51,890 nucleotides of DNA from a virus, in the IMG/VR virus record IMGVR_UViG_3300025890_000039, positions 1 through 51,890 of that record. One strand, written 5' to 3'. Shown here piece by piece: positions 18,564 through 41,687 of this stretch. The notes beneath the pieces were generated by a model. It made no database searches. It worked only from the letters and a program-made list of their open reading frames with translations, and was not told where the DNA came from. The position numbers were made by a program, and so were the translations under genes. Numbering within the stretch: position 1 is the stretch's first letter; each line of letters starts with the position of its first letter.

Positions 18564-19751
18564 TTATTTCACTAAAATCAAATCTTTTTCGTAAGTTTTT
18601 AGAGAATTTATATAAAATGTAAAGATACCATATTCCATTACACCAACTTCTCCGCTGTCCTCTAATATTTTAGGAAGATTAGTTATAACATCAATTTCTT
18701 TTTGAGTTATACGACTAGCGTCAAAGTCTATAACAATGTCTGCGAACTTTGTTATATCAGCAGTACCATACAGTTTTATCTTTTCGTTTATATCAATAGT
18801 AGTATTTAGTTTCTCCTCTCTTATATATTCACCCATATAATCAGAACCAAAATCTAAATAAATTTTATCACACCAAACTTCCAATTCCCTTAGTAAATGT
18901 TTGTTACATCTACGAGCAATGAATGCTATATTATATTTAGGTGAAACTATTGGCTTCATATGTTGGTCGTGTTGTACCATTGTTCCCCACTTACGAATAA
19001 AATTCCTCATATTCTTTGTAGTAGTATATATCCACTCAGGTGAATCTTTGCCTGGCGCTCCACCTGAAGATGGGTTGAACCTACTACCTCTACTTGTCAT
19101 ATGATATACAAGACCTTTCCAAGTCTGTATAAACTCTAATCCTAGCAGATGAAACCTATTGAATATGTCTGAATCCTCTTTTGATTGTGGAGCAAACAAC
19201 TCATCATGACCACCTGTTTTCCAATAGTCCTCTTTGTATATTGCCCACGGAGCAAATACCCCCTCAGTAGTTTTATCTTCACAATTCTTTGAAAACTCAA
19301 TCAAACCTAACTCATCGAACTCTTCAGGTTCTATACCAAAGTCTTTCATTATCTTTTCAGGACCATCCGGATGTAATGATGGTTCTATTCTAGTCGCTGA
19401 TACAACCTTTCCTTTTTCTAAGTGTCTTAGTATCTCAGTATCTAAGTTAGGACAAGCATACATATCTGCGTGAAAGAACATAACGATATCATTACTCGCC
19501 TTTTCACATAAGAAATCATACCAATATACGATACCTTTTCTTTCAGGACCATCATTTCTGAATATCTGTACATTAGGGTCTTTCTTCTGTATCTTCTCTA
19601 GCCACTCCCAAGTCCCATCATCAGAGAAATCATCTCCGAACATTATTTCGTGTCTGTAACCTAAGTTCTTTCTGATACTATTATAAGACCACTCTAAATA
19701 CTTTAGATTATTTCTACTTGGTTGTATAAAACTTATAACCTTATTTGACAT
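18564..19751 (-). CDS. Family 2-like glycosyltransferase
   Basis: 395 residues. GT-A/GT2 features: ISFIQPSRNN at the N-terminus, GDDFSDDGTWEWL, FFHADMYA (DxD equivalent), and a downstream acidic KEDSDIFNRF catalytic-base region. The C-terminal 130 residues form an extra Rossmann-like domain (IAFIARR...KIYLDFGSDY) of unknown role. Last gene of the glycan island in transcription order; overlaps the epimerase gene by 11 bases. Confidence 0.87.
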   Translation of the reverse strand: MSNKVISFIQPSRNNLKYLEWSYNSIRKNLGYRHEIMFGDDFSDDGTWEWLEKIQKKDPNVQIFRNDGPERKGIVYWYDFLCEKASNDIVMFFHADMYACPNLDTEILRHLEKGKVVSATRIEPSLHPDGPEKIMKDFGIEPEEFDELGLIEFSKNCEDKTTEGVFAPWAIYKEDYWKTGGHDELFAPQSKEDSDIFNRFHLLGLEFIQTWKGLVYHMTSRGSRFNPSSGGAPGKDSPEWIYTTTKNMRNFIRKWGTMVQHDQHMKPIVSPKYNIAFIARRCNKHLLRELEVWCDKIYLDFGSDYMGEYIREEKLNTTIDINEKIKLYGTADITKFADIVIDFDASRITQKEIDVITNLPKILEDSGEVGVMEYGIFTFYINSLKTYEKDLILVK

Positions 19752-20613
19752 AATTCTCCTTTATGTACTCTATTATATCTATAGTAGGATTCCACTCCAA
19801 TACTTCTTTAGCTTTAGTATCTGTATTTAGTGTCTCTCTAACTTCGCCAGGCCATTCTGGAATATACTTTATAGGATAGTCCTCACCAAAAGCAGCTGCT
19901 ATTTCATTGATGGAATAGTTCTTACCCCTACCTAACTCAAAGGATACAGCTTCCCATTTATTGATTGAGTCCAATTTCATATACTCCATAGATTTTACCA
20001 TACCATCTACTATATCATATACATTCGTAAAGTCTCTTCGTTGTTCCCCATCGCCTGTAACAGATAATGGTCTGCCTTCATTATATAATCTCTCAAAGAC
20101 ACCTAATACGTTACAATAAGCACCATCTGTCGCTTGATGTTTTCCATAAACATTATAGAACCTCGTTATTATTGTAGGCACATCATATATTTTGGAATAC
20201 ATTTTGATTATCTCTTCGCCTAGCCATTTTGTAAAGGTATATGGGTTAGCATACTTATCTCCGTGTATCGAAGAAGAACCAGCATAAACTACTGGACACT
20301 TTGTCTGTCTAGCCCATTCCATTATATTCTGAGTCCCAAGTGAATTAGCCTCAAAACTCTTCGTTGGATGTTCAAATGATGGCTGTATCCTAGCCAAAGC
20401 TGCTAAATGAAATATAGCATCTGGCTCAAAGTCATATTGTTTTTTTTCCGCTATATCTAAATCAAAATACTTTACACCCTTTCTTTCTACCTCATTCTCT
20501 ACTTTTCCAGTAGAGTAGTTATCGAATGATATTACTTCATGACCATCATCTAATAATCTATTTATTAAATTAGTACCGACAAATCCAGCACCACCTGTGA
20601 CTACACATTTCAT
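19741..20613 (-). CDS. NAD-dependent sugar-nucleotide epimerase/dehydratase
   Basis: 290 residues. Extended SDR: GGAGFVGTNL nucleotide loop near the N-terminus, an acidic residue in SFDNYSTG, FHLAALAR, GSSSIHG and the catalytic YTFTK (YxxxK). Closest in style to UDP-glucose 4-epimerase-type enzymes; substrate unknown. Starts within 4 bases of the end of 20610-21560. Confidence 0.88.
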   Translation of the reverse strand: MKCVVTGGAGFVGTNLINRLLDDGHEVISFDNYSTGKVENEVERKGVKYFDLDIAEKKQYDFEPDAIFHLAALARIQPSFEHPTKSFEANSLGTQNIMEWARQTKCPVVYAGSSSIHGDKYANPYTFTKWLGEEIIKMYSKIYDVPTIITRFYNVYGKHQATDGAYCNVLGVFERLYNEGRPLSVTGDGEQRRDFTNVYDIVDGMVKSMEYMKLDSINKWEAVSFELGRGKNYSINEIAAAFGEDYPIKYIPEWPGEVRETLNTDTKAKEVLEWNPTIDIIEYIKENYVK

Positions 20614-21560
20614 TGTTTACTCCAATTTTCCAACCACTTCTTTTCAGTATAATTTTGGTTGAATCGTTTATTTATTGTTTCGTTACATAGTTTATAAAAT
20701 TTTTCGTTGTTTTTCAACTTATCAGCTATATTTTTGGCTTTCTCTAAGTCACCGATATCCACAGTAGTCAATGGATGTAATATTTCCTGTGTATCTAATC
20801 CCTTATAGCCAATACAAGGTATTCCGTGATAAGCACAATTCATAGCAAATGTACCAGCAGCATGTGTTCTCATCAGATGAACACCTATATTATAATTACC
20901 CAAAGTTTCAATCCATTCTCTCCAACTCATATAAGGTAGATAGTTTATATCTTCAATTGAATCTTCTTGTTCATGCTTTCTACCCATCGATGGTGCTGAT
21001 ATAGGATATCCTATTTCCCTAGCAACCATATAAGAATCAAACCCACCATACCAACTTACAAAATTACCACCAATCATTACCTTTGGCTTCTCATATGATT
21101 TTGGACTTGGTAAGTCACCATAACTATCAATTAAATTTTCACTTCTTTTTGTTAGTCCATTGGGTATCATCAGACTTCGCATAACTCTTACATCTTTACA
21201 CCCCAGCCCTAAGTAATAAGTCACATCGCTTTCATTGTGACAATAAACCCAATCAGCACTCATCAATGTATTATAGTAATGAAATTGTTGTTCTACCGAA
21301 TAGTCCTGAAAATACCAATGTGGGCCTTCTTGCATTACAGCAACCTTATCACAAGCCTCTCTGATACTATCTAAATCAACATCAGGCTTTGTCTTAGGAA
21401 CAATAACAATACCCAAATCAAACTTCTCATTTGGTATGTTATTTATATTATAATGTGGAGCATCTAAAGCCATCATCCAAGCATACTCAGTTCTAGCATT
21501 TGGAAAGTCCCTTGGAATCTTTCCCATAACTTGACTCTCTGAAAAGAATCCTATATTCAT
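20610..21560 (-). CDS. GT-B-like glycosyltransferase
   Basis: 316 residues. Two-domain layout with N-terminal NIGFFSESQVMG, a linker near 155, and a C-terminal MIGGNFVSWYGG...YPISAPSMGR followed by HLMRTHAAGTFAMNCAYHGI and PCIGYKG, the donor-binding region of GT4-type enzymes. Family assignment below GT-B is uncertain. Confidence 0.78.
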   Translation of the reverse strand: MNIGFFSESQVMGKIPRDFPNARTEYAWMMALDAPHYNINNIPNEKFDLGIVIVPKTKPDVDLDSIREACDKVAVMQEGPHWYFQDYSVEQQFHYYNTLMSADWVYCHNESDVTYYLGLGCKDVRVMRSLMIPNGLTKRSENLIDSYGDLPSPKSYEKPKVMIGGNFVSWYGGFDSYMVAREIGYPISAPSMGRKHEQEDSIEDINYLPYMSWREWIETLGNYNIGVHLMRTHAAGTFAMNCAYHGIPCIGYKGLDTQEILHPLTTVDIGDLEKAKNIADKLKNNEKFYKLCNETINKRFNQNYTEKKWLENWSKQ

Positions 21561-21982
21561 ACATACCTCACTATAAAATCACTACATATACCAGCACAAT
21601 TTTCTGTATCAGCTATCTGTAATTCTGGCAAAACACAAATGGATTTATTGGTTATCTGTGTGTTTGGGTAGTTCCAAAGATATCCTTTTGATGTCAATGT
21701 TACAGCATCGTTTTGATGCCAAAAACAATGAACTCCACCCACCATCATACCATATAAAGCATCTATGTTTTTTGCATGACACCACAACTTATCATTTTGT
21801 AAAAAATCGGAATCGATTCTATATTGTGGTTCGTCATGACCTAAATACCATTCCACTTCATTTACTTTCCATACATCAATCTCAACATCAAAATCATGTG
21901 CTAAAGCAGTTTCAATATGGTCTGGATGATTCTCATCCTTTGACTTACCACTCAAATTTCCTCTGTGGGATATTAGTATCAT
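21557..21982 (-). CDS. Glycerophosphodiester phosphodiesterase-like protein
   Basis: 141 residues from MILISHRGNLSG, whose ATG overlaps the upstream TGA. HRGN, an ExD in VEIDVW, GHDEP and HAKN reproduce the metal- and phosphate-binding motifs of the GDPD/PI-PLC TIM-barrel family, but the length is roughly half of a full barrel. Such short phage and surface-glycan-locus versions are recurrent. Possible role: cutting or transferring glycerophosphate groups on a glycan. Confidence 0.78.
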   Translation of the reverse strand: MILISHRGNLSGKSKDENHPDHIETALAHDFDVEIDVWKVNEVEWYLGHDEPQYRIDSDFLQNDKLWCHAKNIDALYGMMVGGVHCFWHQNDAVTLTSKGYLWNYPNTQITNKSICVLPELQIADTENCAGICSDFIVRYV

Positions 21983-22641
21983 ATTTCTTTTGGCGTTCCA
22001 TATGGCTGTACATTGAGATACTTCTTCCAAGGTTGTCCTTTGTCTATCCTTCTGAGAGTTCTGAATCCTCTTTTTCTATAGATTATATTATCACCTGATT
22101 CATATCTACCATTGATACATTCTAATATAACTTCAGCGACTGACTTAGTTGTTAGTCTCGTTCTGGCATCTTCATTAGGGTAATCGTTTTCTCTCATCTT
22201 AGTATCAACTCTACCTGGACTAACAGCGTAAGCATTATAACCCTCAAATGCTAATGACTGAACCAAAGATATCGTTCCACATTTAGAAGCACAATATCCA
22301 CTGTGTTCTGGCTTACCATATTTTCCAGCAACAGATGCTATAAAAACCATATCCATGATACCTAAGTTAGCACACTCTCTAGCTATTCTGTAACTGCCTA
22401 TTAGGTTTACATTGATTTCATTTTCCCATAATTCAATGTCTGAATCTTTTATCAACTGAACATTAGATACCCCAGCACAATTAACGACTGCAGTTGGTTG
22501 ATGATGTTCTAAGCAATCTCTTATAGAATTAGAATCTGTAACATCGCATTCAGCATAAGATATGTTGATTGTATTTGGTTCTATCTCTTTGATTGCTGAT
22601 GCTATATCACTCTCTCCACCGAAAATAACTATTTTAGTCAA
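21979..22641 (-). CDS. Short-chain dehydrogenase/reductase
   Basis: 220 residues from a TTG (LTKIVIFGGESDI): GGAGG lies six bases upstream, and the ATG five codons earlier overlaps the end of the preceding gene without a site. GGESDIASAI nucleotide loop, VNCAGVSN, ASVAGKYG and YCASK catalytic motif. NAD(P)-dependent sugar oxidoreductase by context. Confidence 0.83.
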   Translation of the reverse strand: MTKIVIFGGESDIASAIKEIEPNTINISYAECDVTDSNSIRDCLEHHQPTAVVNCAGVSNVQLIKDSDIELWENEINVNLIGSYRIARECANLGIMDMVFIASVAGKYGKPEHSGYCASKCGTISLVQSLAFEGYNAYAVSPGRVDTKMRENDYPNEDARTRLTTKSVAEVILECINGRYESGDNIIYRKRGFRTLRRIDKGQPWKKYLNVQPYGTPKEI

Positions 22642-23365
22642 GATAAACCTCCTCATCTTCTACTTTATCTAAAAATATTCTGAGTTCCTCTGGTGTCCCA
22701 AGCATATGTTTATTATTGACATCTATTTCATACATCGAAACTATTTTATTAGGTAACTTCAGCATCTCATTATATACTGGACATATATAAAATTCATTAT
22801 TGGTTCTGATGTTCTTTTCAATCATAGCATAAGAACTATGTACATAATCAGAACCTCTTTTGAAATAATAAATACCAGCAGAAGCTTTATCTGATATAAC
22901 AATCTTTTCTGCAACATCCATTACTATACCTTTCTTACACCTAACATAGCTATGATGTGGATTAGTAGAATTGAAAGTAACTAAGCATCCATCAAAAGAC
23001 CTCGAAAACTTTATAAAGTCAGCAAAGTCCCATTGTAGATACTGGTCACAATTAGCAATAACCAAATCATCATCATTATCTATAAACTCCTCAGCTAATA
23101 ACACAGTACAAGCTGCTCCTTCCGTTAGCTTATCAACAACAACTATATCACCTCTACCATCTAAATAATCAGCCAATCCCATATCTAAATGTTCTTTTAG
23201 TGCTAAAAAGATAAAATTAGTATCTAAGTATTCTGTATCTAATGAGTTTATAACTCTTTCAATCATTGGTTTGCCACATACATCAATTAGTGGTTTAGGA
23301 AGTTCATATCCTTGTTCTTGAAATCTAGCACCAGCACCAGCCATTGGTATCACTACATTTATCAT
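22634..23365 (-). CDS. Sugar-1-phosphate nucleotidyltransferase
   Basis: 243 residues. MINVVIPMAGAGARFQEQGY with the downstream PKPLIDVCGKPM is the nucleotide-binding G-x-G-x-R...K/PKPL signature; IANCDQYL supplies the Mg-binding Asp. Activates a sugar 1-phosphate to a nucleotide sugar, the entry step of a glycan pathway. Nucleotide and sugar unknown. Confidence 0.88.
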   Translation of the reverse strand: MINVVIPMAGAGARFQEQGYELPKPLIDVCGKPMIERVINSLDTEYLDTNFIFLALKEHLDMGLADYLDGRGDIVVVDKLTEGAACTVLLAEEFIDNDDDLVIANCDQYLQWDFADFIKFSRSFDGCLVTFNSTNPHHSYVRCKKGIVMDVAEKIVISDKASAGIYYFKRGSDYVHSSYAMIEKNIRTNNEFYICPVYNEMLKLPNKIVSMYEIDVNNKHMLGTPEELRIFLDKVEDEEVYLD

Positions 23366-23375
23366 TTTTTTCTCC

Positions 23376-24056
23376 TCATTGTTCTAATAACAACCTTATA
23401 AACATTATATTCTGTTCACCAACATCACTACCTATGTAATTGACTTTACCCTTACTCTTTTCTAAGTATTCTCTACAATATTTTCCAATCTCATAGTGAG
23501 CCCCACCTTTATTATGTCCAATTTGATTGCCAACAGTATAATCACCTAAACCATAATCAAAGAACTCTGAAATATGTCTCATCATTTCAGCACCTGATAA
23601 AAAGTATACATCATTCATTTCTGTTGGTCTTTGTTCACCAGCTATGTAAAGATTATTATTATCTAAATTATCAAAATCAAAATTGATTCCGAATGCCACA
23701 TCAAATCTAGTAACCATATACCAATCATATTCTACCTCGCTATTCAAGGCTAATCTCAAAGCCTCACACTTAGAATACCATTGACTATACCTACTATCTA
23801 AAATGCCATCATCCTCACCTTTTTGCTTTTCTATAACATATTTTTTGGGTTTGTATGTTTTAAGTATTTCATCTTCTCTTTCAACATCCCAACTATGTAT
23901 ATAAGTATCAACATCTTTGTCTTGAATAAAATATTTTTCTAAGCTTTCATAGCCAATTCCAATCGGTAAAGGTTTTGAATCTTGCGAATCAACAGAACCT
24001 ACTTTGAACTGATTCATATAACCGATATAGCCTGACATACACAGTGCTATCTTCAT
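23376..24056 (-). CDS. Putative glycosyltransferase-related protein
   Basis: 226 residues starting MKIALCMSGYIGYMNQF. YDWYMVTRFDVAFG (DxxxG and R-x-D) and the absence of membrane segments resemble uncharacterised glycosyltransferase-like proteins in phage and algal-virus glycan loci. Overlaps 24053-24826 by 4 bases. Function tentative. Confidence 0.65.
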   Translation of the reverse strand: MKIALCMSGYIGYMNQFKVGSVDSQDSKPLPIGIGYESLEKYFIQDKDVDTYIHSWDVEREDEILKTYKPKKYVIEKQKGEDDGILDSRYSQWYSKCEALRLALNSEVEYDWYMVTRFDVAFGINFDFDNLDNNNLYIAGEQRPTEMNDVYFLSGAEMMRHISEFFDYGLGDYTVGNQIGHNKGGAHYEIGKYCREYLEKSKGKVNYIGSDVGEQNIMFIRLLLEQ

Positions 24057-24826
24057 CCGTACAACTCCTCATATGTTCTTTCTATCCAGTATTGTTGATT
24101 TCTATCCTTCGGATTAGGTGGTATCGCATTGAAATGATAAACCCACCCAGCATCCAAATAGTATAACTTATCTTCCATCCAGTGTTGATGTTCTTCGTCT
24201 AATACAATTAGGTTCTTTCTCCATATGTCTTGTAAGTTATAACAATTTGGTAATATTTTCATATCAATATTATGTTTATCCAACATAAAATTTAGTATAG
24301 TTTGGTCTGTACCTGCTTGTACCTCAGCAATTACTTTTCTTATGTTTTCCGCATCACCTTCATAGTATTTTTTCATCTCATCAAAAAACCATCGATGTTC
24401 TTTATTAACAATCTGAAATCCACCATTTATGTATCTATGTGGCATTATTTTATGTCCATCAAATAGCTTAGCACCAAACTCTCTGATACTTCTTCCAGTC
24501 CATTCGTAGCAACCATCGTTCATAACTCCACAATACTTATTCTCCGACTCATCAAAGAAGTTAGGACAATCAGGATGGACAATCGTATCAGCATCTACCA
24601 TTAATATTTGATTATAATCTATACTATTTTCCTCTAAGAAATCAAATAGATAATACCTTTGCCAAGTAATCTTCATATAGTCTACTGGAAACAATAAATC
24701 TTCCCATACCAGTAATTCACAGCCATTCTTATCACAAAAATATTTCCAGCTATCAACTGAATATTGATAAGAATCATTTCTACCATCACCTATTGTGATA
24801 TTTGGTATAAAGACTATATTCTTCAT
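24053..24826 (-). CDS. GT-A fold glycosyltransferase, paralog of 3600-4346
   Basis: 257 residues. QILMVDADTIVHPDC, DGCYEWTGRSI, INGGFQIV, AGTDQTILN and GWVYHFNA align in order with motifs of the protein at 3600-4346. DxD-containing nucleotide-sugar-dependent enzyme. Flanked by coupled glycan genes. Confidence 0.83.
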   Translation of the reverse strand: MKNIVFIPNITIGDGRNDSYQYSVDSWKYFCDKNGCELLVWEDLLFPVDYMKITWQRYYLFDFLEENSIDYNQILMVDADTIVHPDCPNFFDESENKYCGVMNDGCYEWTGRSIREFGAKLFDGHKIMPHRYINGGFQIVNKEHRWFFDEMKKYYEGDAENIRKVIAEVQAGTDQTILNFMLDKHNIDMKILPNCYNLQDIWRKNLIVLDEEHQHWMEDKLYYLDAGWVYHFNAIPPNPKDRNQQYWIERTYEELYG

Positions 24827-26400
24827 TTTTTACTAATTACTAATCCACATTCCCTAAAGTAAAGATAGTCTATATCAGTACTCCAAAAGGTACTCAATGC
24901 GTGTTCAGGTGTTTCTACTATGGGTTCTCTGTCATTGAAGCTAGTGTTCAATACTAATGGAACTCCTGTCTTTTCATAAAACTTAGTTATGAATGAATGA
25001 TACCATTCATTGTCCTCTTTCTTTACAGTCTGTAATCTAGCACTGTTATCAAAGTGGACGACTGCTGGAACCTTATCTACTTTGTCCTCTTTCCATTTTA
25101 GACAAAAACTCATATAAGGGCTGTCTATATCGTGTTCAAACCATTCTCCAACATGCTCTCTCAATATAGATGGAGCAAATGGTCTAAACCATTGTCTATG
25201 CTTCACCTTTTCATTTACAATGTCTTTATTTCTTAAAGACCTCGGGTCTGCTAATATACTTCTATTACCTAAAGCTCTTCTGCCTGACTCTGAGCCACCA
25301 CCAAAAACAGATACTATTTTTTCGTTTATCATCTCATCTATAATAAAGTCATCGTTTTGAGTAAATATTACCATACCATCTTTATTTTTCTGATACATAT
25401 TTTCTACAGCATTTGCTATTTCTTTTTCACTATAAGTCTTACCAAGATAAGGTGTGGCATTCTGTACACTATTATATATTCTTGGATTATCAAGAACATC
25501 GTGATAGATATATCTAGCTGAGCCAATTGCTAGCCCAGCGTCATATGGTATTGGGTCACAAAATACATTTATGCCAGGATACCAATCGAACAACTTACCA
25601 ACAAAAACACAATTCAAAGAAACACCGCCTGATAAACATAGATTCTTTGGTTTATGTTCTTCCATCAACCTATCAAATATAGACTTCAAAACATCCTCAG
25701 TTGATTGTTGTAAAGCAGCGGCTATATGAAACATTTCTTGTTCATCAGACTTTGCTAACTCAGATAATTGTTTCCAAGCTGCAGGTAGTTTCTGTCCTTT
25801 ATTCGGTACATGCATATATTTGAAGTGTTCAATATATTTATCAGCATTTCCTAAAGCAGCCATACCCATTACAGTTCCTTGTTGGGATGGGCTTCTATGT
25901 GATAGACCAAATATTTTTACAGTACATCCACTCCATATGCCACCTAAATGTAGAACATTCGGATCCCAAATCTCTACCTCTTCTATTTTATTGTCCTTAC
26001 CATTCCATACTGTAAAACAAGTTCTCCAATGCTTTTCTTGTACCGTACTATAATCTAATCCACCACCATCGATAGTGACTATCAAAGCCTCTTTGAAATC
26101 ACTACTATAAAAAGCATTAGCTGCGTGTGATTGGTGATGTCCTGGTTGAATCCATTCTTTACCAAGAGTCTTATATTTTTCAAATGACTTTTTATATGTC
26201 TCCTCTCTTTTACTACCAATACAATGTGTGTAATAATCTACATCATCAGCATCGTATGTATCAGAAAGAAACTCCATAGAGTCTCCCTCTGTGTCTTTTA
26301 TTCTATTAAATCTTTCTAATTCATTATGTACTTTAGGTACACCATCTTCTAATATACCATAAGCAGCATCATGACCTGAACAAAACCCCGCTATCTTCAT
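24823..26400 (-). CDS. NodU/CmcH-type O-carbamoyltransferase
   Basis: 525 residues. Full-length family member: N-terminal GFCSGHDAAYGILEDG, the Fe/metal-site GHHQSHAANAFY, IDGGGLDYS, LCLSGGVSLN, and the C-terminal GGGSESGRRALGNRSILADP and LNTSFNDREPIVETP motifs that form the carbamoyl-adenylate site. Transfers carbamoyl from carbamoyl phosphate to a hydroxyl, here probably on a sugar. Starts within 4 bases of 24053-24826. Confidence 0.93.
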   Translation of the reverse strand: MKIAGFCSGHDAAYGILEDGVPKVHNELERFNRIKDTEGDSMEFLSDTYDADDVDYYTHCIGSKREETYKKSFEKYKTLGKEWIQPGHHQSHAANAFYSSDFKEALIVTIDGGGLDYSTVQEKHWRTCFTVWNGKDNKIEEVEIWDPNVLHLGGIWSGCTVKIFGLSHRSPSQQGTVMGMAALGNADKYIEHFKYMHVPNKGQKLPAAWKQLSELAKSDEQEMFHIAAALQQSTEDVLKSIFDRLMEEHKPKNLCLSGGVSLNCVFVGKLFDWYPGINVFCDPIPYDAGLAIGSARYIYHDVLDNPRIYNSVQNATPYLGKTYSEKEIANAVENMYQKNKDGMVIFTQNDDFIIDEMINEKIVSVFGGGSESGRRALGNRSILADPRSLRNKDIVNEKVKHRQWFRPFAPSILREHVGEWFEHDIDSPYMSFCLKWKEDKVDKVPAVVHFDNSARLQTVKKEDNEWYHSFITKFYEKTGVPLVLNTSFNDREPIVETPEHALSTFWSTDIDYLYFRECGLVISKK

Positions 26401-27258: not shown

Positions 27259-27267
27259 TTTTTTCTC

Positions 27268-28826: not shown

Positions 28827-28828
28827 TA

Positions 28829-30145: not shown

Positions 30146-30180
30146 TATATAACCTCATTATGTATATAAGTATCACGCAA

Positions 30181-32651: not shown

Positions 32652-33537
32652 TTATAGTATCCTCAGCATATTTATAGAACAACTCTATTCCCTTTTCAAT
32701 TGATATTGTAGGTTTCCAATCAAGTAATCTCAACTTCTCATTGTTACCAGTACAACCAAATTGGTCTCCATCAGGTGAACCGATATTCTGTATGTCGAAT
32801 TCCTCTTCATCCCTGCCACTGTTCTCTATTAGAGTTTTTATGATGTTTCCTATTGTTATTTTATTCATGCGACAAAGATTATATACTTCGCCATTCGTAT
32901 CTTTTTTAAGTCCAAGTAACAGCGCATTGATATTATCATCTATATAAATTAGACTTCTGTATCTATCCAAGCTACCAGTAACTTTTATAGTATTGCCCCT
33001 CACAACCTGATTGGCAAATGCAGCAACAACTCCTTGCCTCTCAACATGCAAATTCTGTCCAGCTCCATATGTGTTAAACACTCTGAATATTGTATAATCA
33101 ATTCCATATTGTGAATATGATTTCAAACAATACTCTCCGTACAACTTTGATAAAGCATAATTTGATAATGGATTCAATTCTGCCTCTTCATTTACACACT
33201 CACCTTCACCATAAACAGCCATTGTAGATGTGTATATTATCTTCTTCACATCCATATGCTTAGCAAACCTACATACATTCAAAGTTCCTTTTACATTCCA
33301 ATCCACATCCAATTCAGGCTCAACCATAGACCTATGTCCATATGATTGTCCAGCAGTATGGTATATAACATCAATCGGTGTATTATATAATTGTTGAAAG
33401 TTATCGTATACTGAAATATCAAATTGATGATCAGCACCCCATATTTTATCAACTGTAACTACATTATGTCCTAGCTCTATGAGTCTTTTAGTTAGAGCCT
33501 TTCCAATAAAACCATTACCAGTAACCAATATATTCAT
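32644..33537 (-). CDS. NAD-dependent sugar-nucleotide epimerase
   Basis: 297 residues. ILVTGNGFIGKAL nucleotide loop, VIYHTAGQSYGHRS, IYTSTMAVYGEGE and the catalytic YALSK. UDP-glucose 4-epimerase or dTDP-type SDR; the substrate is not determined. Directly precedes the SIS-HAD fusion on the message in reverse order. Confidence 0.88.
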   Translation of the reverse strand: MNILVTGNGFIGKALTKRLIELGHNVVTVDKIWGADHQFDISVYDNFQQLYNTPIDVIYHTAGQSYGHRSMVEPELDVDWNVKGTLNVCRFAKHMDVKKIIYTSTMAVYGEGECVNEEAELNPLSNYALSKLYGEYCLKSYSQYGIDYTIFRVFNTYGAGQNLHVERQGVVAAFANQVVRGNTIKVTGSLDRYRSLIYIDDNINALLLGLKKDTNGEVYNLCRMNKITIGNIIKTLIENSGRDEEEFDIQNIGSPDGDQFGCTGNNEKLRLLDWKPTISIEKGIELFYKYAEDTING

Positions 33538-34512
33538 CTAAGCTGGGCCTTGTCCATTATGCTCCTTCCAATATTCTGACCAAGATGTGAACCTCACACC
33601 CTTATCATCAATATATCTAACAGCCCTTGGTTTTTCAGCAGTAACCTTCGTTACAAATTTATCCATATCATGCTTTTTCAGCCACTCCCAAACTAATTGA
33701 GTACCAGTCTTTCCATTGATAAGTCCTCTATCTGGTTTAGCCTTTGCTGTAAAAATAACAACATCATAATTTTCTGATAACTTTTGCAGTGATGTTCTGG
33801 CACCCTCTATCGGTTCGTCATAGACTGTACCATCATAATATCCTTTAGAATTTTTATGAACTACACCATCAAAATCTACAGCAATATTCTTTAGTTCATC
33901 AGGAAAACTGTGTTCTCTTATTTCACCATTAGTATTGTAATGTGCAATATCTTCAGGCCTATTACCACCTATTGGCGGACATACCTTTCCACTTCCGTGA
34001 GTCAATTCGTATTGTAATAATAAAGATAATACTTCGATAGTGTGATAATATTCACATTCTGCCACAACCTCTGTTAGATTAGGAACTCTATCCACTAATG
34101 GCTTTGCTGTTAGACAAGCCATTGGTATGTCGTTTGAATAACACCATTGAAATGCTTTTATCAAATCTCTAGATGTACCTGATGATGAAAATCCTAAGAC
34201 TAAAGACCGCTTTTTCTGTTCTTTAGTTTTTGTCGAAGTAACCATCTTCAACCATTGATGCATCCAATGGTCAAAATCAGTATCATTTATTAGTGATGTA
34301 ACCACTGTAGCACTATCTGGACACACAGCATTCTTAGTACCATTACTAAGTCTTGATATGTCTATTGCTGAATGACTAGCAACTGCTAAATTACCACCAT
34401 GCCCTAAACAATAAATGTCATCAGCGTTGTTAAACTTTTCTTGCATTTCAGACCACTCATCTGAGTTTACTACATTGTAATATATCTGTTCAATGTTTTC
34501 GATATCTAGCAT
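33538..34512 (-). CDS. SIS-domain isomerase fused to HAD phosphatase
   Basis: 324 residues. N-terminal 200: SIS domain with YCLGHGGNLAVASHSAIDIS, CPDSATVVTSLIND and LGFSSSGTSRDLI, in the style of phosphoheptose isomerase GmhA. C-terminal 110: HAD domain with IAVDFDGVVHKN (nucleophile DxD) and IFTAKAKPDR (motif II), RYIDDKGVRF (motif IV). In heptose synthesis these are separate proteins (GmhA, GmhB); a fusion would make a two-step activity. Product sugar unconfirmed. Confidence 0.85.
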   Translation of the reverse strand: MLDIENIEQIYYNVVNSDEWSEMQEKFNNADDIYCLGHGGNLAVASHSAIDISRLSNGTKNAVCPDSATVVTSLINDTDFDHWMHQWLKMVTSTKTKEQKKRSLVLGFSSSGTSRDLIKAFQWCYSNDIPMACLTAKPLVDRVPNLTEVVAECEYYHTIEVLSLLLQYELTHGSGKVCPPIGGNRPEDIAHYNTNGEIREHSFPDELKNIAVDFDGVVHKNSKGYYDGTVYDEPIEGARTSLQKLSENYDVVIFTAKAKPDRGLINGKTGTQLVWEWLKKHDMDKFVTKVTAEKPRAVRYIDDKGVRFTSWSEYWKEHNGQGPA

Positions 34513-34514
34513 TA

Positions 34515-35159
34515 TTACTCCTTTATATTTTTATAAATTGCTTCGGCGATTTGCCAATCAAATTCTGTGTCTATATCTGTAGACTCTATTTCATCAAGTG
34601 TTATAAAACCAGGATTGTCACCAACCAATCCAGCCTTTTGAAACATGACATCTTTATCTATAATAGATATACCATAAGTTAGTTTTACGATATCTGGTAA
34701 GTCTTGACTGTTTGGTACATCGTCTAAATCGTAGTTTATAGGTTTACCATCTAACCATAAATGATTTTTTACCTCAGCAACCGAAGTTACACTATCGAAT
34801 CCACCACAATAATAGTCTATAGCATCTTGATGTGATTTTACAGTTACGAATGGAGCACATACTGGTGCTAAAAATACGATATCCGTTTTCGTTGTTTCAG
34901 CTATGTTTTTATGAAACTCACTATTTGTTGCTTTAGAACTCGCATAATACTCATCTCTTTTATGAGTCTTTGTTCCGTATTGTCTACCAATAGCTAACAT
35001 ATCATCACAATCTGAATTTACTAATATCTCATCTATTCCATTGATTTGTAAAAGCACTTTCAGTTTCATCTCAAGTAAATTAGATTCACCAAATGGTTTT
35101 ATATTTTTATTGGGAACTCTCTGAGAACCTTTTCTAACTGCTACAACTGCTGTAATCAT
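34515..35159 (-). CDS. NeuA/KdsB-type CMP-sugar synthetase
   Basis: 214 residues. MITAVVAVRKGSQRVPNKNI is the N-terminal nucleotide loop of acylneuraminate/KDO cytidylyltransferases, with PVCAPFVT and a C-terminal DIDTEFDWQIAE (metal Asp) typical of NeuA. Makes a CMP-activated acidic sugar. No NeuB-type synthase is visible in the window, so the sugar may come from the host. Confidence 0.9.
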   Translation of the reverse strand: MITAVVAVRKGSQRVPNKNIKPFGESNLLEMKLKVLLQINGIDEILVNSDCDDMLAIGRQYGTKTHKRDEYYASSKATNSEFHKNIAETTKTDIVFLAPVCAPFVTVKSHQDAIDYYCGGFDSVTSVAEVKNHLWLDGKPINYDLDDVPNSQDLPDIVKLTYGISIIDKDVMFQKAGLVGDNPGFITLDEIESTDIDTEFDWQIAEAIYKNIKE

Positions 35160-35821
35160 AATTGTCCACCATTTATATCAATCGTTGTTCCAGTAATATA
35201 AGAAGCCCCATCTGAGCATAAGAATACTATTGGATTTACAACCTCATCTATTTCAGCAAGTCTACCCATTGGTATTACTTCTTCTAATTTTTTTATCTCT
35301 TCTTCTGTTACTGTTTTCAATAACATATCCGTTTTGGTTTGACTTGGACAAACAGCATTCACATTTATACCACGACCAGCAACTTCAAATGCCACTTGCT
35401 TAGTCAATCCTATTATACCAGCCTTACTAGCCGTATAATGTACACCACTGGTATAGCTTCTGTGTCTACCCGCAATCGAAGAAACATTTACTATCTTACC
35501 ACCATCAGGCATAATATCTAAGGTCTTTTTTATTATGTAATAGTATCCTCTAAGATTCACATCCAATACTTCATCCCACTCATCAAAACTAACATCCTCT
35601 ATTTTGTTTGAGTAGTTTATAGCGGCTACATTGACTAAAATATCTACTGATTCAAAATCAGAAAACCATTTATCAATATCTTCTTTTTTAGATATATCAC
35701 AATTAGATGTATTTATACCAAAAACATCAGCACCCTTATGAATAAACTCATTATATACTCCCCTACCTATTCCTCTAGAAGAACCTACAACAAGTACAAC
35801 CTTATCTTCAAAATTATACAT
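35156..35821 (-). CDS. Short-chain dehydrogenase (FabG-like)
   Basis: 221 residues. VVGSSRGIGRGV loop, NVAAINYSN, NVSSIAGRH and YTASKAGIIGLTK catalytic motif, ending in the usual TGTTIDINGG. FabG-type SDR enzymes in glycan loci usually reduce or oxidise an activated sugar. Start overlaps the stop of 34515-35159 by 4 bases. Confidence 0.88.
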   Translation of the reverse strand: MYNFEDKVVLVVGSSRGIGRGVYNEFIHKGADVFGINTSNCDISKKEDIDKWFSDFESVDILVNVAAINYSNKIEDVSFDEWDEVLDVNLRGYYYIIKKTLDIMPDGGKIVNVSSIAGRHRSYTSGVHYTASKAGIIGLTKQVAFEVAGRGINVNAVCPSQTKTDMLLKTVTEEEIKKLEEVIPMGRLAEIDEVVNPIVFLCSDGASYITGTTIDINGGQL

Positions 35822-36236
35822 ACACGTGTTCTACATCTGGTTTTGTTATAGCATATCTAGCACCAGGACCATTCACACAAGTGATGAGATGTGGTACTTT
35901 TTTTGGTACGACTATTATATCCTTAGCCCATACCTTTTTGGTTCCTTGTCCTTCAATCCACCATTCCCATTCTCCATCAAGAATCACCCAATTTTCATCA
36001 GCGTTAGGGTGGTAATGTTTTCTATTACCTTCGCCTGATTGTTGGTTTATTATTACACCACCGAAAGCTTCATTGTAAGCAATCCTTACAGCCCAAGAAT
36101 TGTAAGCCCCAAACTCTGTTCTAAGTTCGTCTAAGTTTGTTGTTGTGGCATTCTGATATTTTTCTAATTGCTCCCAGCTAATGTCCTCTAAACCATCATC
36201 CTTTAGAACCTTTACTACATCTGTTTCTGAATTCAT
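35814..36236 (-). CDS. Cupin-fold protein
   Basis: 140 residues. NRKHYHPNADENWVILDGEW and the downstream VVPKKVPHLI give the two cupin metal-binding boxes (HxH...E and a distal His). Probably a sugar isomerase or epimerase accessory or a small-molecule-binding cupin. Confidence 0.85.
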   Translation of the reverse strand: MNSETDVVKVLKDDGLEDISWEQLEKYQNATTTNLDELRTEFGAYNSWAVRIAYNEAFGGVIINQQSGEGNRKHYHPNADENWVILDGEWEWWIEGQGTKKVWAKDIIVVPKKVPHLITCVNGPGARYAITKPDVEHVYV

Positions 36237-36793
36237 TATAACCCCACTATTGGTTTCTTTGATTGAGCATCCCAGTGATGTACTGGAATACCTCTTTCTC
36301 TAATTTCTGTCCTTATTTTTTTAGTTTCATCTCTTTCTTTATGAACCTTCTTTCCATGAAACTCAGCATATACAATATCTATATAATCTATTGAGCCATC
36401 TTGTATCATCTTAGGTAACACTTCATACTCAGCACCTTCAATATCCATCTTCATTATTATGTAGTCATCTTTACTAAAGTTTTCTGTAATCCATCTGCTG
36501 ATATCAACTGACTCTACTGTTATGGGATTATCAAAATCTAAGTTACCACGAGTCTTTCCGTGTATCAGAGACGAAGAAGCAGCATGACCTAAATAAAAGT
36601 CTTGCGTACCATCTTCTATCCAAACTGCTTTGTTATGAAAAGTTATACCATCTGTACTTTGTAACACTTCTGTAAATCTTGGGTTACATTCAAATGAAAT
36701 TATTTCATACTCATCGCTGTTTGGGTACTCTTCTCTGAACTTCTTTACTGATATAGCTGCATGTGCGCCTAAATCTAAAAATACTTTTCTCAT
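36236..36793 (-). CDS. FkbM-family methyltransferase
   Basis: 185 residues. KVFLDLGAHAAIS (SAM loop), SFECNPRF, and IMKMDIEGAEYEVLP, the hallmark of FkbM methyltransferases. Methylates hydroxyls on glycans or metabolites. Start one base before the stop of the adjacent cupin. Confidence 0.9.
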   Translation of the reverse strand: MRKVFLDLGAHAAISVKKFREEYPNSDEYEIISFECNPRFTEVLQSTDGITFHNKAVWIEDGTQDFYLGHAASSSLIHGKTRGNLDFDNPITVESVDISRWITENFSKDDYIIMKMDIEGAEYEVLPKMIQDGSIDYIDIVYAEFHGKKVHKERDETKKIRTEIRERGIPVHHWDAQSKKPIVGL

Positions 36794-37449
36794 TTCCGTA
36801 TATTCATTTCCTTACTAAAGTTCTCATTGTAAAACATATTTTGTTTAGTCTGCTTTTCTATAGTTTTTGGATGGTATAGACTCAATGCTTCTTGTGGTGG
36901 TAGGTGAGCATATGTTTTTATTCCTGTAATATATTCATGTAGTGGTCTAGTCCATCTTATAGATTCATCTCTTCTAAACACACGAGCTTGATAATCAGGA
37001 TAGTTCACCCAGTTCTTTTCTGTAACTCTCCAACCCCACTTCTGTATATCTTCTTGTGCCATACCCTCTACTGTATTTACTCTTGGTATCCACATCAAAT
37101 CTACATTATCATTCATTTCTATTATTCGTTTTATTTGAAGTAATAAAACTTTATGTGGGTATTCATCAGCATCTATATGAAAGATATAATCACCACTTGA
37201 CTTTTCTATAACTGAGTTTTTTTGAGCAGCAAAGTCACCGTTGAGTTTTCTATCATAGACTATCATAGACTTATGAACACCACTAAACTTTTTAGTATAG
37301 ACATCCAATTCAGACCGTACAGCATCATCATCACCATCTACACAAACAACTACCTCATCATCGTCATCCATAGTTTCGTATATAACTTCTAATAACCTCT
37401 TTAGTTCTTCAGCCTCATTGTGGACTGTAATACCGTAACTAATTTTCAA
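36790..37449 (-). CDS. Family 2 glycosyltransferase
   Basis: 219 residues. SYGITVHNEAEELKRLLEVI and VVVCVDGDDDAV followed by FHIDADEYP (DxD) and WTRPLHEYI are classic GT2 motifs. Last glycan gene before two phage hypothetical genes. Confidence 0.9.
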   Translation of the reverse strand: MKISYGITVHNEAEELKRLLEVIYETMDDDDEVVVCVDGDDDAVRSELDVYTKKFSGVHKSMIVYDRKLNGDFAAQKNSVIEKSSGDYIFHIDADEYPHKVLLLQIKRIIEMNDNVDLMWIPRVNTVEGMAQEDIQKWGWRVTEKNWVNYPDYQARVFRRDESIRWTRPLHEYITGIKTYAHLPPQEALSLYHPKTIEKQTKQNMFYNENFSKEMNIRK

Positions 37450-37957
37450 ACTTACCCTCTTCTAATAAATTTATTGTATATGGTTTGATAGTTATCGGTT
37501 CAAGATATACTGTCATACCCCTAACTTTATTCCAGTCATATGTTCTGTATCCACCAGTAAGCATCCCACCTCTTTTTGAACTTTTAGTAAAATTTTCTAC
37601 ATAACTTTTTATTCTATTGAAGTCTCCTTGAACTCTTCTTTTAGAAGATACTCCACCTATGTCTACTCTTATGATTGCTTCATTTGATTTTGTCTTTCGT
37701 AATAGTACTACAGTACCTAACTTTTTCATTTCTTTTAGAAAGTTATCGGATTGAAATGCAGTTACCGGCATATTTCTACTCTCTATTTTCAAGCCAACAA
37801 GATGTTTATTATTAGTACCATCTTTTTTAGAATATGGTATCTGTACACCCATTACAAGTATACTATGTAGTTTCAGTTGTCCTTTAGTTCTGTACCTAAA
37901 TGATATTATATCACCCGCACCAACTTTACCCCAACTCGTTTGCTGTCTCATTGACAA
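37439..37957 (-). CDS. Hypothetical basic phage protein
   Basis: 172 residues, beta-rich and basic, with no glycan-enzyme motif. It interrupts the glycan island together with 37926-38396. Overlaps both neighbours by 11 and 32 bases. Confidence 0.7.
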   Translation of the reverse strand: MSMRQQTSWGKVGAGDIISFRYRTKGQLKLHSILVMGVQIPYSKKDGTNNKHLVGLKIESRNMPVTAFQSDNFLKEMKKLGTVVLLRKTKSNEAIIRVDIGGVSSKRRVQGDFNRIKSYVENFTKSSKRGGMLTGGYRTYDWNKVRGMTVYLEPITIKPYTINLLEEGKFEN

Positions 37958-38396
37958 TTACTCCCATAGCTTGACAAGCTTTCATAAATTCAAATTGACC
38001 AAACTTCTGAGGATTTTCTATGTCCAGTCGCTTATCCATGCCATCATATTTGTCTCTATCTTCTTCCTCGACATCTACAACTGAAGCATAGTTCCAATAC
38101 CAGTCAGTAGGAACTCCTTCAGGATATATGATGCCCTTTTCACCCATATTGATTACAGACGGAAACCAGACAAGTCCTTTTTCATCATCAATAACTTTTA
38201 AGTCATTCATTAGTTCTGTATTATTAGAAACCATCTCTTCTAAATGTAAACTATCTAAAGCAAAATTGCTGTTAGTAGTCATTCCACAATCAAAGCATAA
38301 ATAGGATTCAAATGGTTCGCCTTTGATTTCTGTTTTTTCTACAACACATTTATCTGATAAGTCCATGCATACAGGACATTTTGTTTTTTGTTCCAT
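37926..38396 (-). CDS. Zinc-ribbon protein of unknown function
   Basis: 156 residues. N-terminal CPVCMDLSDKC and CFDCGM give two CxxC pairs (about residues 8-11 and 34-37), a four-Cys zinc ribbon, followed by an acidic domain. Such proteins are common in T4-like phage genomes but uncharacterised. Confidence 0.75.
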   Translation of the reverse strand: MEQKTKCPVCMDLSDKCVVEKTEIKGEPFESYLCFDCGMTTNSNFALDSLHLEEMVSNNTELMNDLKVIDDEKGLVWFPSVINMGEKGIIYPEGVPTDWYWNYASVVDVEEEDRDKYDGMDKRLDIENPQKFGQFEFMKACQAMGVIVNETANELG

Positions 38397-38397
38397 A

Positions 38398-39732
38398 CTA
38401 CACCTTTTTTAGTTTAGGAAGTTTCATTTTATTTGGCTTACCGACTTTCTTCAACTTAGGTAAATTCAAACTAACTGCTTGTGGTTGTTCTTCAAACTTA
38501 GGTAAGCGATTATCTAATATACTACTAAATTCTACTGTCATAGCATCCAATGAGAATTTAGACTTATTCGCAATTGCCTGCTTCTTTGAGGGCGAAGCAT
38601 ACTTTTTATAATTCCTAAAAATGTCATTTATATACCTAGCAGCCTGTTGATAGTTTACAGTAAACCATTGAGCGCCCTTTACCAACATTTCTTTTGGTAA
38701 TGACGATTCGTCCACATCAGTTAGTACGCCTGGTAGCAATACTGAATGTTGTTTGTTTAGGAAGTCTACATGACCACTCCAAGCAGAAGCAACAACAGGC
38801 TTTTCAGACATACTAGCTTCTAACAATGGTCTTCCAAATCCCTCTCCATGCGTAAATGTAATATGAGCTTTTACTTTCGGGTGATTATACAGCCCATTCA
38901 TTTCTTCATCTTCCAAGTCACCATGCAACAGATAAACATTAGGTAATATACTGTCTCTACCAACATCATCTTTTATCATATTAATTTTATCAATCATCTG
39001 CTTTCTATCTGTAACAGAAAATGTAGCACCACTTGTTTTTAGTATTAGTCCTGGAGCATTCTTTTGATTTTTGAATGTCTCTAAGAATACTTTTAGTAGC
39101 ATACTCAAATCTTTTCTGTCATGCCCAAAATTACCTTGTAACCAATGACCAACAAATAAAAAGTTCCAATCGTTTTCTACTTTATCCATCTTCTCCAAAA
39201 GATATTCAGAAAACTTATTTGTTTTTTTATAGATTGAAGTATCAGTACCTTCAAACAAAACTTCCATTGGCTTAGTAAGCTTTACTATTCCTACTTTCTG
39301 CTTACTTTTTTCATCTATCTTCTCATACTCGACCTTTTCAAATCCATCCTTTACAAATTTTGATGGTACTAAATTTAAGTCCATTCTGTTCAGACCCTCT
39401 ATCCACTCTGGTTTAGGAAGAGTATTTTCTATACCAGCAGTAATTCCTATGTTGTATTTACCTATTGGCTGAAATTCATTTGGGACACTAATATGGATAT
39501 GAATTTCAGGTTGTCTTTCTAACTTTTGTTCTGTGAGTATCAAATCGATAATTTTCTTATCCTCAACATCATTTGCACTCAAAGCATTCAATGGACAATT
39601 ACCCCATCTCATAGAATTTATTTTGATATCAAACCTATCCATAGCTATCAAACTTCTAACTATATCTCTACTATGTGAACCATATCCACTTCTTGTAGCA
39701 ACAGGTCCTGTAACTAATAATAATGGCTTCAT
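38398..39732 (-). CDS. GT4-like glycosyltransferase with repeated C-terminal tail
   Basis: 444 residues. N-terminal VTGPVATRSGYGSHSRDIVR, a linker, LFVGHWLQ, and HITFTHGEGFGRPLLEASMS (EGFGRPLLE, the donor-binding E-x7-E of GT4). The final 25 residues repeat LPKLKKV twice (LPKLKKVGKPNKMKLPKLKKV), a basic tail that could anchor the enzyme to DNA, membrane or another protein. Followed by the second GT4 gene 39940-41331. Confidence 0.87.
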   Translation of the reverse strand: MKPLLLVTGPVATRSGYGSHSRDIVRSLIAMDRFDIKINSMRWGNCPLNALSANDVEDKKIIDLILTEQKLERQPEIHIHISVPNEFQPIGKYNIGITAGIENTLPKPEWIEGLNRMDLNLVPSKFVKDGFEKVEYEKIDEKSKQKVGIVKLTKPMEVLFEGTDTSIYKKTNKFSEYLLEKMDKVENDWNFLFVGHWLQGNFGHDRKDLSMLLKVFLETFKNQKNAPGLILKTSGATFSVTDRKQMIDKINMIKDDVGRDSILPNVYLLHGDLEDEEMNGLYNHPKVKAHITFTHGEGFGRPLLEASMSEKPVVASAWSGHVDFLNKQHSVLLPGVLTDVDESSLPKEMLVKGAQWFTVNYQQAARYINDIFRNYKKYASPSKKQAIANKSKFSLDAMTVEFSSILDNRLPKFEEQPQAVSLNLPKLKKVGKPNKMKLPKLKKV

Positions 39733-39930: not shown

Positions 39931-39939
39931 ATTTAGTTC

Positions 39940-41331
39940 CTATACTTTGTGCATCTCGTATCTACTACGAGGTGTCCATTTATCTAATGCGTTATCCATA
40001 TGTTCTATAAATAAGTTAGACATAGCAGTTGCTGACATACTAGCATCGTCACTCATAACAAATTCATGACCTAACTTACCACATCTTTGTCTTTCTTTAT
40101 CTCCCATATCATACCACTCTTTTAGAGCATCAGCAAAATCTTCTGCTTTTGGTCTGTCATCAAAAATATATGGCGTTGGTATTGAACCTTGTAAACTTCG
40201 ATTGGATGGCCATACTGGTTTACACCACTCGCCCCAACTCAAATCATCATTGTCTTTCCATTTCTTATCGTCATGTAAAGTTTCAATCCAATCATAATCT
40301 TTATATGTTATAAGTTTATCTTTATATCTAAATCCACATTGGTCTTGTAACCCACCTGTAACATTTACTGATATTGGCGTACCACACATCAAAGATTCAG
40401 CAGTTCCTAAACCAAAGCCCTCATTGGAAGCCATATTGATTGTAACATCAGCCATATTATATAAATAACATAACTCCATATCACTTAGTCCTGAATGTGA
40501 GAATATAACATCATATTCCGAACAAATTGCTTCAACTACTGCTGGTAAATCTGTACCATTTGGGTCTTTGGGTGATGTGTGCATTACCAATAAGCATTTT
40601 TCAGCTTCTTTCTTTGGTAACATATCACAAAAATGTTTGTAAGCCATTATAACATCACCTGGTAGTTTTCTTCGAATATTTCTATTGTTCCAAAATACTA
40701 TGTATTTATAGTCTTTACCCATAGTGACTTTCTTCTTATAGTCCAAATACTTTTTATACTCTTTATGAGCAGAATCAATTGAGAAAAACTTATTTTCGTT
40801 TATTCCGTGTGGTATGTAGGTAGAGTCCCAATCTGTTCTTGGTTTATTTGTACATACCTTCTGTACTATATTATGAGTTTGTTTACTGATATTCATAATC
40901 AAATCACAAGACTCATAGAATGGTTCGTTCCATTTTGGATAAGGTAAGTCGTCCCATATATTATAATAGAAAATAGGAATTTCTTGTCTTATCTCATGCT
41001 CCATTTGATACAACCAGTCCCAAAATCTAGGGTCTGTGTAATGGAGTATAGCATCTGGCTTTTCTAAATGCATAACCTGTCTGAGCATATCTTGATTTCC
41101 ATAACCACTAACAGGATATAATCTAAGATAGCTATCTTTTATACCCATTTCTTTTTCTAATGATTCAGCCATATCAACAATCTTTCCCTCATCGGGATGT
41201 TTTATTGCTCCAGCAACTTGAGCCCAATCATAATGTTGTAGAGTCCCTATCACAAACTCACGAGACATAGTAGCAATACCACTATGCATTCTCAAATCAT
41301 CTGCTAATAATAGAATCTTTTTCTTAGCCAT
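39940..41331 (-). CDS. GT4-like glycosyltransferase
   Basis: 463 residues, GT-B fold. KKILLLADDLRMHSGIATMS, a middle IVFWNNRNIRRKLPGD, and NMASNEGFGLGTAESLMC with the catalytic E-x7-E. Compared with typical GT4, an extra acidic/aromatic insert lies near residues 355-400. Member of the glycan island; its stop lies just before 39930. Confidence 0.88.
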   Translation of the reverse strand: MAKKKILLLADDLRMHSGIATMSREFVIGTLQHYDWAQVAGAIKHPDEGKIVDMAESLEKEMGIKDSYLRLYPVSGYGNQDMLRQVMHLEKPDAILHYTDPRFWDWLYQMEHEIRQEIPIFYYNIWDDLPYPKWNEPFYESCDLIMNISKQTHNIVQKVCTNKPRTDWDSTYIPHGINENKFFSIDSAHKEYKKYLDYKKKVTMGKDYKYIVFWNNRNIRRKLPGDVIMAYKHFCDMLPKKEAEKCLLVMHTSPKDPNGTDLPAVVEAICSEYDVIFSHSGLSDMELCYLYNMADVTINMASNEGFGLGTAESLMCGTPISVNVTGGLQDQCGFRYKDKLITYKDYDWIETLHDDKKWKDNDDLSWGEWCKPVWPSNRSLQGSIPTPYIFDDRPKAEDFADALKEWYDMGDKERQRCGKLGHEFVMSDDASMSATAMSNLFIEHMDNALDKWTPRSRYEMHKV

Positions 41332-41658: not shown

Positions 41659-41687
41659 AACTTTCTCCGTTTATATACATATATATA

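Follow-up and report, generated by a model that had tools for sequence, protein, structure and literature searches.

Introduction

On what acceptor, and to what end, would a T4-related phage build glycans with a block of 27 consecutive genes? Large LPS-type sugar gene sets have been known in marine T4-like phages since P-SSM2, and their role, even whether they are functional, is open (PMC3037559). The cyanomyoviruses P-SSM2 and S-SSM7 carry such sets (PMC3037559, PMC2984593), and uncultured marine T4-like phages, the pelagimyophages, possess a hypervariable host recognition cluster that includes glycosyltransferases (PMC7029224). Glycosylation of the capsid and tail tube is an established phage strategy, as cited for mycobacteriophages in PMC12619734.

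The window analysed here, a 51,890-bp linear IMG/VR virus record from a marine T4-like phage, contains such a block. A preliminary description had read it as a near-complete glycan pathway that could decorate virions, replace host surface glycans, or modify DNA. Here, we describe a computational analysis of this locus and its relatives. The sequence comparisons presented below show the block to be a glycan locus that Far-T4-type phages carry and pass on vertically, in which a constant frame encloses an exchangeable cassette. New within the literature searched are this fixed frame with its exchangeable cassette, a candidate regulator, the placement among Far-T4 phages, one of them available as a cultured model, and a link to Marinimicrobia; the preliminary description had recorded none of these. 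Since the locus has a fixed frame and a candidate regulator, and one carrier, phage immuto (Flavobacterium sp. LMO8), is in culture, its purpose is directly testable.

Results and Discussion

Gene content of the island

Pfam matches identify T4-type neighbours, with gp44 at 45435, gp45 at 47108, and gp43 at 47887. The island follows gp43-gp45-gp44 and a nuclease gene, which places it in the replication region, and none of its genes was recognisable as coding for a tail fibre. As the preliminary count of about 27 consecutive minus-strand genes had indicated, it comprises 27 contiguous minus-strand ORFs (18564-41331), which in the ORF list are tightly packed and mostly overlap or abut. A megablast search of the island against phages returned no match. 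The locus reaches a little past the ends noted earlier, to a regulator gene and tandem element at 41464-41695 on one side and to an ORF at 18305 and a lipoprotein gene at 17536 on the other. The following members were assigned by profile matches:

18564 and 36790 (-), GT2, firm Pfam
39940 (-), GT1, firm Pfam
38398 (-), GT1, slightly below the Pfam cut-off, with PHROG glycosyltransferase support
19741, 21979, 26401, 32644 and 35156 (-), five NAD(P) sugar/SDR enzymes, firm Pfam
22634 (-), nucleotidyltransferase, Pfam
34515 (-), nucleotidyltransferase by Pfam, PseF-like by a match below the NCBIfam cut-off
24823 (-), carbamoyltransferase, firm Pfam
36236 (-), FkbM methyltransferase, firm Pfam
28829 (-), Asn-synthase-type amidotransferase, firm Pfam
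27268 (-), 2OG-Fe(II) oxygenase, firm Pfam
35814 (-), cupin, firm Pfam
30181 (-), Nucleotid_trans, slightly below cut-off
30908 (-), MptE/Maf-like, weak match below cut-off
33538 (-), SIS/GmhA-like hints (SIS plus HAD-like), weak

These enzymes and the gp44/gp45/gp43 neighbours bear out the proposal of a very large glycan island inside a T4-related genome, one that far exceeds T4 with its DNA glucosyltransferases. Nucleotide-sugar activation, claimed for 34515 and 22634, agrees with the nucleotidyltransferase matches at both, the PseF-like call at 34515 being sub-threshold. The NAD(P) sugar enzymes were correct in type and number five by Pfam rather than four, and the eleven or so glycosyltransferases proposed are reduced to about four firm and three to four probable ones. 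Carbamoyltransferase, methyltransferase, amidotransferase, and oxygenase tailoring genes were recovered by Pfam; the GDPD identity of 21557 was dropped, as this ORF had no Pfam match even at E<=10 and its HRG...E.D motif is seen by eye only. Two specific pathways were also considered but not adopted, CDP-ribitol (NTP-transferase 22634 with SDR 21979) and GDP-heptose (SIS/HAD 33538 with an NTP-transferase), the matches being generic and a kinase missing. Parts of a Maf-type system for CMP-nonulosonate protein glycosylation may be represented by PseF-like 34515 and MptE/Maf-like 30908, both sub-threshold; no NeuB match was found in the island of the window. The products of 37926 and 37439 are not recognised as sugar enzymes, yet are members of the locus.

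A constant frame encloses a variable cassette

Relatives were retrieved by IMG/VR scans, in which at least 577 stretches are candidates for Far-T4 islands; the core set consists of 11 viral contigs on which both borders are present, namely the window and ten relatives. The frame glycosyltransferase located about 80 IMG/VR loci; because some of these may stem from overlapping datasets, locus counts are not fully independent, and denominators are the testable cases. The frame genes, their borders, and the variable region are as follows:

42506-43384 (-), PD-(D/E)XK nuclease, constant gene bordering the locus on its upstream side (PF12705, E=1e-20)
41699-42151 (-), SLOG/YspA-like protein, constant neighbour (PF10686, E=1e-7; 11/11 genomes)
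39940-41331 (-), frame glycosyltransferase GT1a (PF00534; 11/11 genomes at 71-79%)
38398-39732 (-), frame glycosyltransferase GT1b (phrog_2170, E=5e-19)
37926-38396 (-), small CxxC...CxxC frame protein, zinc-ribbon-like by eye (54/54 loci; immuto gp179, E=7e-25)
37439-37957 (-), beta-rich, fast-evolving frame protein (47/50 loci; AF2 pLDDT 82.6)
36790-37449 (-), frame GT2 (PF00535, E=1e-12; 47/47 loci; immuto gp178)
20610-36793 (-), hypervariable cassette region (family clustering across islands; Pfam for content)
24053-24826 (-), GT8-like transferase (PF01501, E=1e-4, below cut-off)
20610-21560 (-), GT-B-like transferase (WsaF_C hint, E=0.14; 11/11 islands; immuto homologue, E=7e-17)
19741-20613 (-), NAD-dependent nucleotide-sugar epimerase, closing frame (PF01370, E=1e-41; 9/11 genomes; immuto gp170)
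18564-19751 (-), closing GT2 of the frame (PF00535, E=5e-15; 11/11 genomes; immuto gp169, 53%)
18305-18547 (-), 80-aa border ORF (11/11 genomes)
17536-18171 (-), putative lipoprotein, far border (lipobox Cys29 invariant in 11/11; in 17/26 relatives)

All 11 bordered contigs carry an island of 17-32 kb at the same site between the PD-(D/E)XK nuclease and the putative lipoprotein. The nuclease lies upstream of the frame glycosyltransferase in 75 of 75 testable loci and is present in immuto and in phage Mel-JY01 too. At the head of the locus the order nuclease, ribbon-helix-helix (RHH)-like protein, GT1a, GT1b, Zn-ribbon, beta-rich protein, GT2 is near-constant over 80 loci, with GT1b after GT1a in 57 of 58. 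Identity of GT1a to that of isolates is 47% for immuto, 44% for Mel-JY01, and 28.5% for phage RM378; the immuto and Mel-JY01 copies of GT1b are 44-45% identical. A fold search of the 37439 protein against PDB gave no significant match, and the AF2 model of the lipoprotein was poor.

Behind this head, 314 ORFs of 49 loci fell into 124 families, 76 of them singletons. The 11 islands comprise 107 gene clusters, 50 of which occur in one genome only and nine in all; the latter include GT1a, GT1b, the Zn-ribbon-like and beta-rich proteins, GT-B, the closing GT2, and the GT8-like gene, which lies inside the variable region yet is kept in 11/11 islands. Among the genes in the cassette region of the window (20610-36793) are those for a CMP-sugar synthetase, epimerases, a PseB/CapD-like protein, GT8, and an NTP-transferase. 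Cassettes of relatives contain FdtA, a DegT aminotransferase, and a C-methyltransferase, predicted functions that imply different sugars, and PEP-mutase matches with an EDKxxxKxNS motif in three relative genomes possibly denote phosphonates. When the window is compared with its relative G005, the nucleases are 96% identical, the frame glycosyltransferases 69-78%, and about half of the cassette genes are unrelated; so close a nuclease beside divergent frame genes and cassettes indicates that islands or cassettes are exchanged.

Highly variable content would suit passenger DNA. This could be headful stuffer, as has been suggested for the LPS clusters of cyanophages (PMC3037559), or a set of accessory genes that are under loose selection and share no single integrated function. 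We consider passenger DNA very unlikely indeed, since the frame order is near-invariant over about 80 loci, reaching a cultured phage, and the ORFs are intact and tightly packed. The layout and enzyme content also resemble an O-antigen locus, as they would if a host chromosomal island had been joined to a phage contig by misassembly. This is hardly conceivable given collinear borders in 11 viral contigs and an isolate genome and the phage-like codon usage. The checks suggested in the preliminary description point the same way: ten other viral contigs show the same borders as the window, and apart from marginal matches the frame transferase is missing from Marinimicrobia chromosomes, which rules out a host origin of the block; gene order compared with other phages shows the locus at the same site, collinear in immuto; and the GC content of the islands (31-33%) and their codon usage both match the phage core.

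A hallmark of bacterial O-antigen and capsule loci, constant flanks around a variable centre of sugar and transferase genes, is present here. In the islands sampled we saw no evident gene for a flippase, polymerase, transporter, or priming transferase, and the claim of a near-complete pathway, in the O-antigen sense, does not stand. A hydropathy scan, which picks up proteins with 2-3 TM segments elsewhere in the window, found no ORF with at least three TM segments among 343 island ORFs, and one, a short ORF of 148 aa, among 627. The lack of a flippase, polymerase, and transporter speaks against a self-contained pathway of the Wzx/Wzy or ABC type but is no argument against LPS-core chemistry.

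The gene set is far beyond that of T4, as had been claimed, but it is not unprecedented, since the cyanophages P-SSM2 and S-SSM7 and the pelagimyophages carry large LPS-type clusters (PMC3037559, PMC2984593, PMC7029224). With these it shares a large glycosyltransferase set in a T4-like genome. The cyanomyovirus LPS clusters, however, sit elsewhere, near hli03/phoH, and hold only distant homologues (carbamoyltransferase, about 31%), whereas the pelagimyophage cluster, flanked by VrlC and gp14, includes tail fibres and this island sits in the replication region.

Phage lineage and cultured carriers

Placement by gp23 was made from a relative, G003; the window, itself without gp23, is linked to the group through its polymerase and synteny. 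The G003 protein is 51% identical to that of Mel-JY01, 49% to that of immuto, and 34.5% to that of RM378 over the full length, other T4-likes matching in part. By this capsid protein, tested in the relative, the phages belong to the Far-T4 group, which is widespread in the oceans. Among isolates, Microcystis phage Mel-JY01 has the closest polymerase (46%).

A cultured REPRESENTATIVE, Flavobacterium phage vB_FspM_immuto (NC_055915), carries the same locus at gp183-gp169, with collinear nuclease, RHH-like gp182, GT1a, GT1b, Zn-ribbon gp179, GT2, variable genes, epimerase, and GT2. Unlike the window, its locus spans about 11 kb and contains other cassette genes (WecE aminotransferases, a pilin-glycosylation protein); orthologues of the lipoprotein, SLOG, and beta-rich protein were not found in immuto. 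The literature searched yielded no discussion of the immuto locus. Identity between the two lineages is 47% for GT1a, 44% for GT1b, and 53% for the closing GT2, compared with 49% for gp23 and 41% for the nuclease. By this comparison the frame genes have diverged about as far as the core genes of the phages, though the hosts represent different phyla.

Mel-JY01 (PP395634) resembles the window in that, at the same replication-region site, its nuclease gene precedes GT1a, here divided into two ORFs, and then GT1b and GT2, but its block is small, with about eight genes, and neither the closing epimerase nor the RHH-like protein was found in it. Rhodothermus phage RM378, a Far-T4 reference, has GT1a and weak GT1b and GT2 homologues nearby; unlike the window, it shows no cassette island within the 20 kb examined. 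In the Far-T4 papers searched by these terms, glycosylation and Marinimicrobia are not mentioned, nor is TonB in those of them searched for it.

A probable Marinimicrobia host

Upstream of gp43, phages of this clade encode a full-length TonB-dependent receptor of 912 aa (L019:6932-9670), the C-terminal part of which lies in the window at 50511-51890. Matches to this phage receptor were found at 59 bacterial loci, most of them from Marinimicrobia, and in a tree the phage receptors form one region nested within Marinimicrobia sequences. Two MAG rows, L182 and L229, also fall in the phage region and are probably misbinned phage DNA. Given where the conserved phage receptor falls in the tree, an uncultured member of Marinimicrobia (SAR406) is the most likely host. 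This is phylogenetic evidence of a Marinimicrobia host for an abundant Far-T4 clade, and none such is reported in the literature searched. The frame glycosyltransferase occurs in 6 of 149 Marinimicrobia genomes; five matches are marginal, and the sixth, on a contig end with GT1b adjoining, is probably phage. The phage also carries a TonB C-terminal protein.

The acceptor of the glycan

Across host phyla, the transferases expected to contact the acceptor have evolved together with the phage. This points to a phage-encoded acceptor, and the absence of obvious membrane export machinery from the 343 and 627 island ORFs fits a soluble cytoplasmic one. With a DNA acceptor disfavoured, a virion protein is the first choice and the host LPS core its main rival.

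The rival holds that during infection the LPS/LOS core is rebuilt at the inner leaflet by soluble transferases and exported by host MsbA/Lpt, and that the altered surface, in concert with the lipoprotein and the TonB-dependent receptor of the phage, would prevent superinfection or change how receptors are displayed. This is the published reading of the P-SSM2 and pelagimyophage LPS genes (PMC2984593, PMC7029224). LPS-core transferases are also soluble, and GT8, GT1, and GT2 are typical of the LPS core, so that the missing membrane proteins are compatible with LPS remodelling. The GT8-type gene is kept in 11/11 islands, a putative lipoprotein with an invariant lipobox borders the island, and the TonB-dependent receptor is of Marinimicrobia origin; together with the TonB C-terminal protein, the lipoprotein and receptor show an interest of the phage in the host envelope. 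Host remodelling is thus a serious rival but appears the less likely to us, because the frame transferases, the expected recognisers of the acceptor, are conserved across Flavobacterium and Marinimicrobia phages, diverge like the core, and were not found in Marinimicrobia chromosomes beyond marginal matches.

The phage encodes three Mom-like proteins, which makes some form of DNA modification likely, and the glycans found on phage DNA can vary widely (Pyle 2024, as cited in PMC12619734). A T4-style glycosylation of the phage's DNA, in which exotic sugars would shield it against restriction, is nevertheless very unlikely: the thymidylate-synthase/dCMP-hydroxymethylase (PF00303) and C5-methylase (PF00145) families were each found in none of ten relatives, mostly fragments, by searches that detected their positive controls, and no island protein matched the T4 alpha/beta-GT Pfam families. 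A Tet/JBP search (PF12851) gave no match, as did its positive control.

We give an even chance to the model in which the frame builds a stem on a phage-encoded acceptor, probably a virion protein, and the cassettes add strain-specific sugars, generating phage "serotypes". The frame transferases would attach and extend the constant stem in the cytoplasm, most likely on one or more virion proteins; we infer both this acceptor and the order in which the transferases act. The cassette would then supply the strain-specific outer sugars, here carbamoylated, methylated, amidated, or oxidised, and in relatives FdtA-type 3-amino sugars, C-methyl sugars, or possibly phosphonates. Strains would show differing particle glycans, and recombination would swap cassettes or whole islands. 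Several of the transferases rest on sub-threshold matches, which counts against the virion-glycan model. That Far-T4 phages coat their own virions by means of a self-regulated, serotype-like locus, with a constant stem and outer sugars swapped by cassette exchange, we propose tentatively, its chances falling somewhat short of even. Such a locus would be comparable to bacterial O-antigen loci, though it would belong to tailed phages that infect Marinimicrobia and Flavobacteria. The self-glycosylation of chloroviruses and mimivirus offers comparable cases.

A candidate regulator and tandem element

Two features precede GT1a:

41464-41658 (-), 64-aa RHH-like protein, candidate regulator (79/80 loci; directly upstream of GT1a)
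41665-41695 (-), AT-rich tandem element, candidate operator/promoter (precedes the RHH-like ORF; degenerate in the window)

The RHH assignment of the 64-aa protein is weak: the Pfam RHH_10 matches were sub-threshold (E 0.01-0.25) in five of six sequences scanned, and a PDB profile search with the small protein gave no RHH match. The immuto protein gp182 is 45% identical to it. The T4 late-promoter motif TATAAATA showed no consistent pattern upstream of the island. The RHH-like protein and the tandem TATATA element would probably time expression of the locus. In relatives the element consists of three TATATAYN boxes followed by GGAG (consensus TATATACTTATATACATATATACGGAG); it was found in 45 distinct contexts in 2.3 Mb of loci, mostly directly before the RHH-like ORF, with none in Markov controls, and in the wider locus set the tandem boxes were detected in 31 of 79.

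Receptor, envelope and DNA-modification genes

Beside the replication gene gp43 the phage encodes a TonB-dependent receptor, which is conserved across the phage clade. In a phylogeny of TonB-dependent receptors, the phage receptors are placed inside those of Marinimicrobia. Its role might lie in host range, in the uptake of nutrients or in superinfection. A TonB C-terminal domain is encoded elsewhere in the window, so that alongside the receptor the phage has a TonB-like piece as well.

50511-51890, minus strand: TonB-dependent receptor, adjoining gp43; also on contig L019 (6932-9670)
11631-11939, minus strand: small protein with TonB C-terminal domain (PF03544, E=2e-10)

Contigs of this clade (L181, L240, L241, L243 and L246) were found binned in MAGs, the bins being labelled Flavobacteriales, Euryarchaeota and a Marinimicrobia-phylum genome (G171).

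The phage T5 lipoprotein Llp blocks its receptor, and a similar role is possible, by analogy, for a conserved putative lipoprotein at the island border, in which the lipobox cysteine is invariant.

17536-18171, minus strand: putative lipoprotein

Because PEP mutase lies within the islands of relatives, its presence suggests that the glycan made there may carry phosphonate decoration.

Islands of G001, G004 and G007, and L260:19087-20388: PEP mutase, motif EDKIGSKRNS/EDKIGNKRNS

Three Mom-like DNA-modification proteins are encoded on this single fragment, one of them inserted between gp45 and gp44 (phrog_1384; PF25680 Mom, E=9e-44).

15703-16521, 43901-44542 and 46346-47107, minus strand: Mom-like proteins

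A methyltransferase-like and a GT8-like reading frame occur outside the island, toward the fragment's other end; the GT8-like one (3600-4346, minus strand) resembles the island transferase at 24053.

2935-4346, minus strand: methyltransferase-like and GT8-like ORFs
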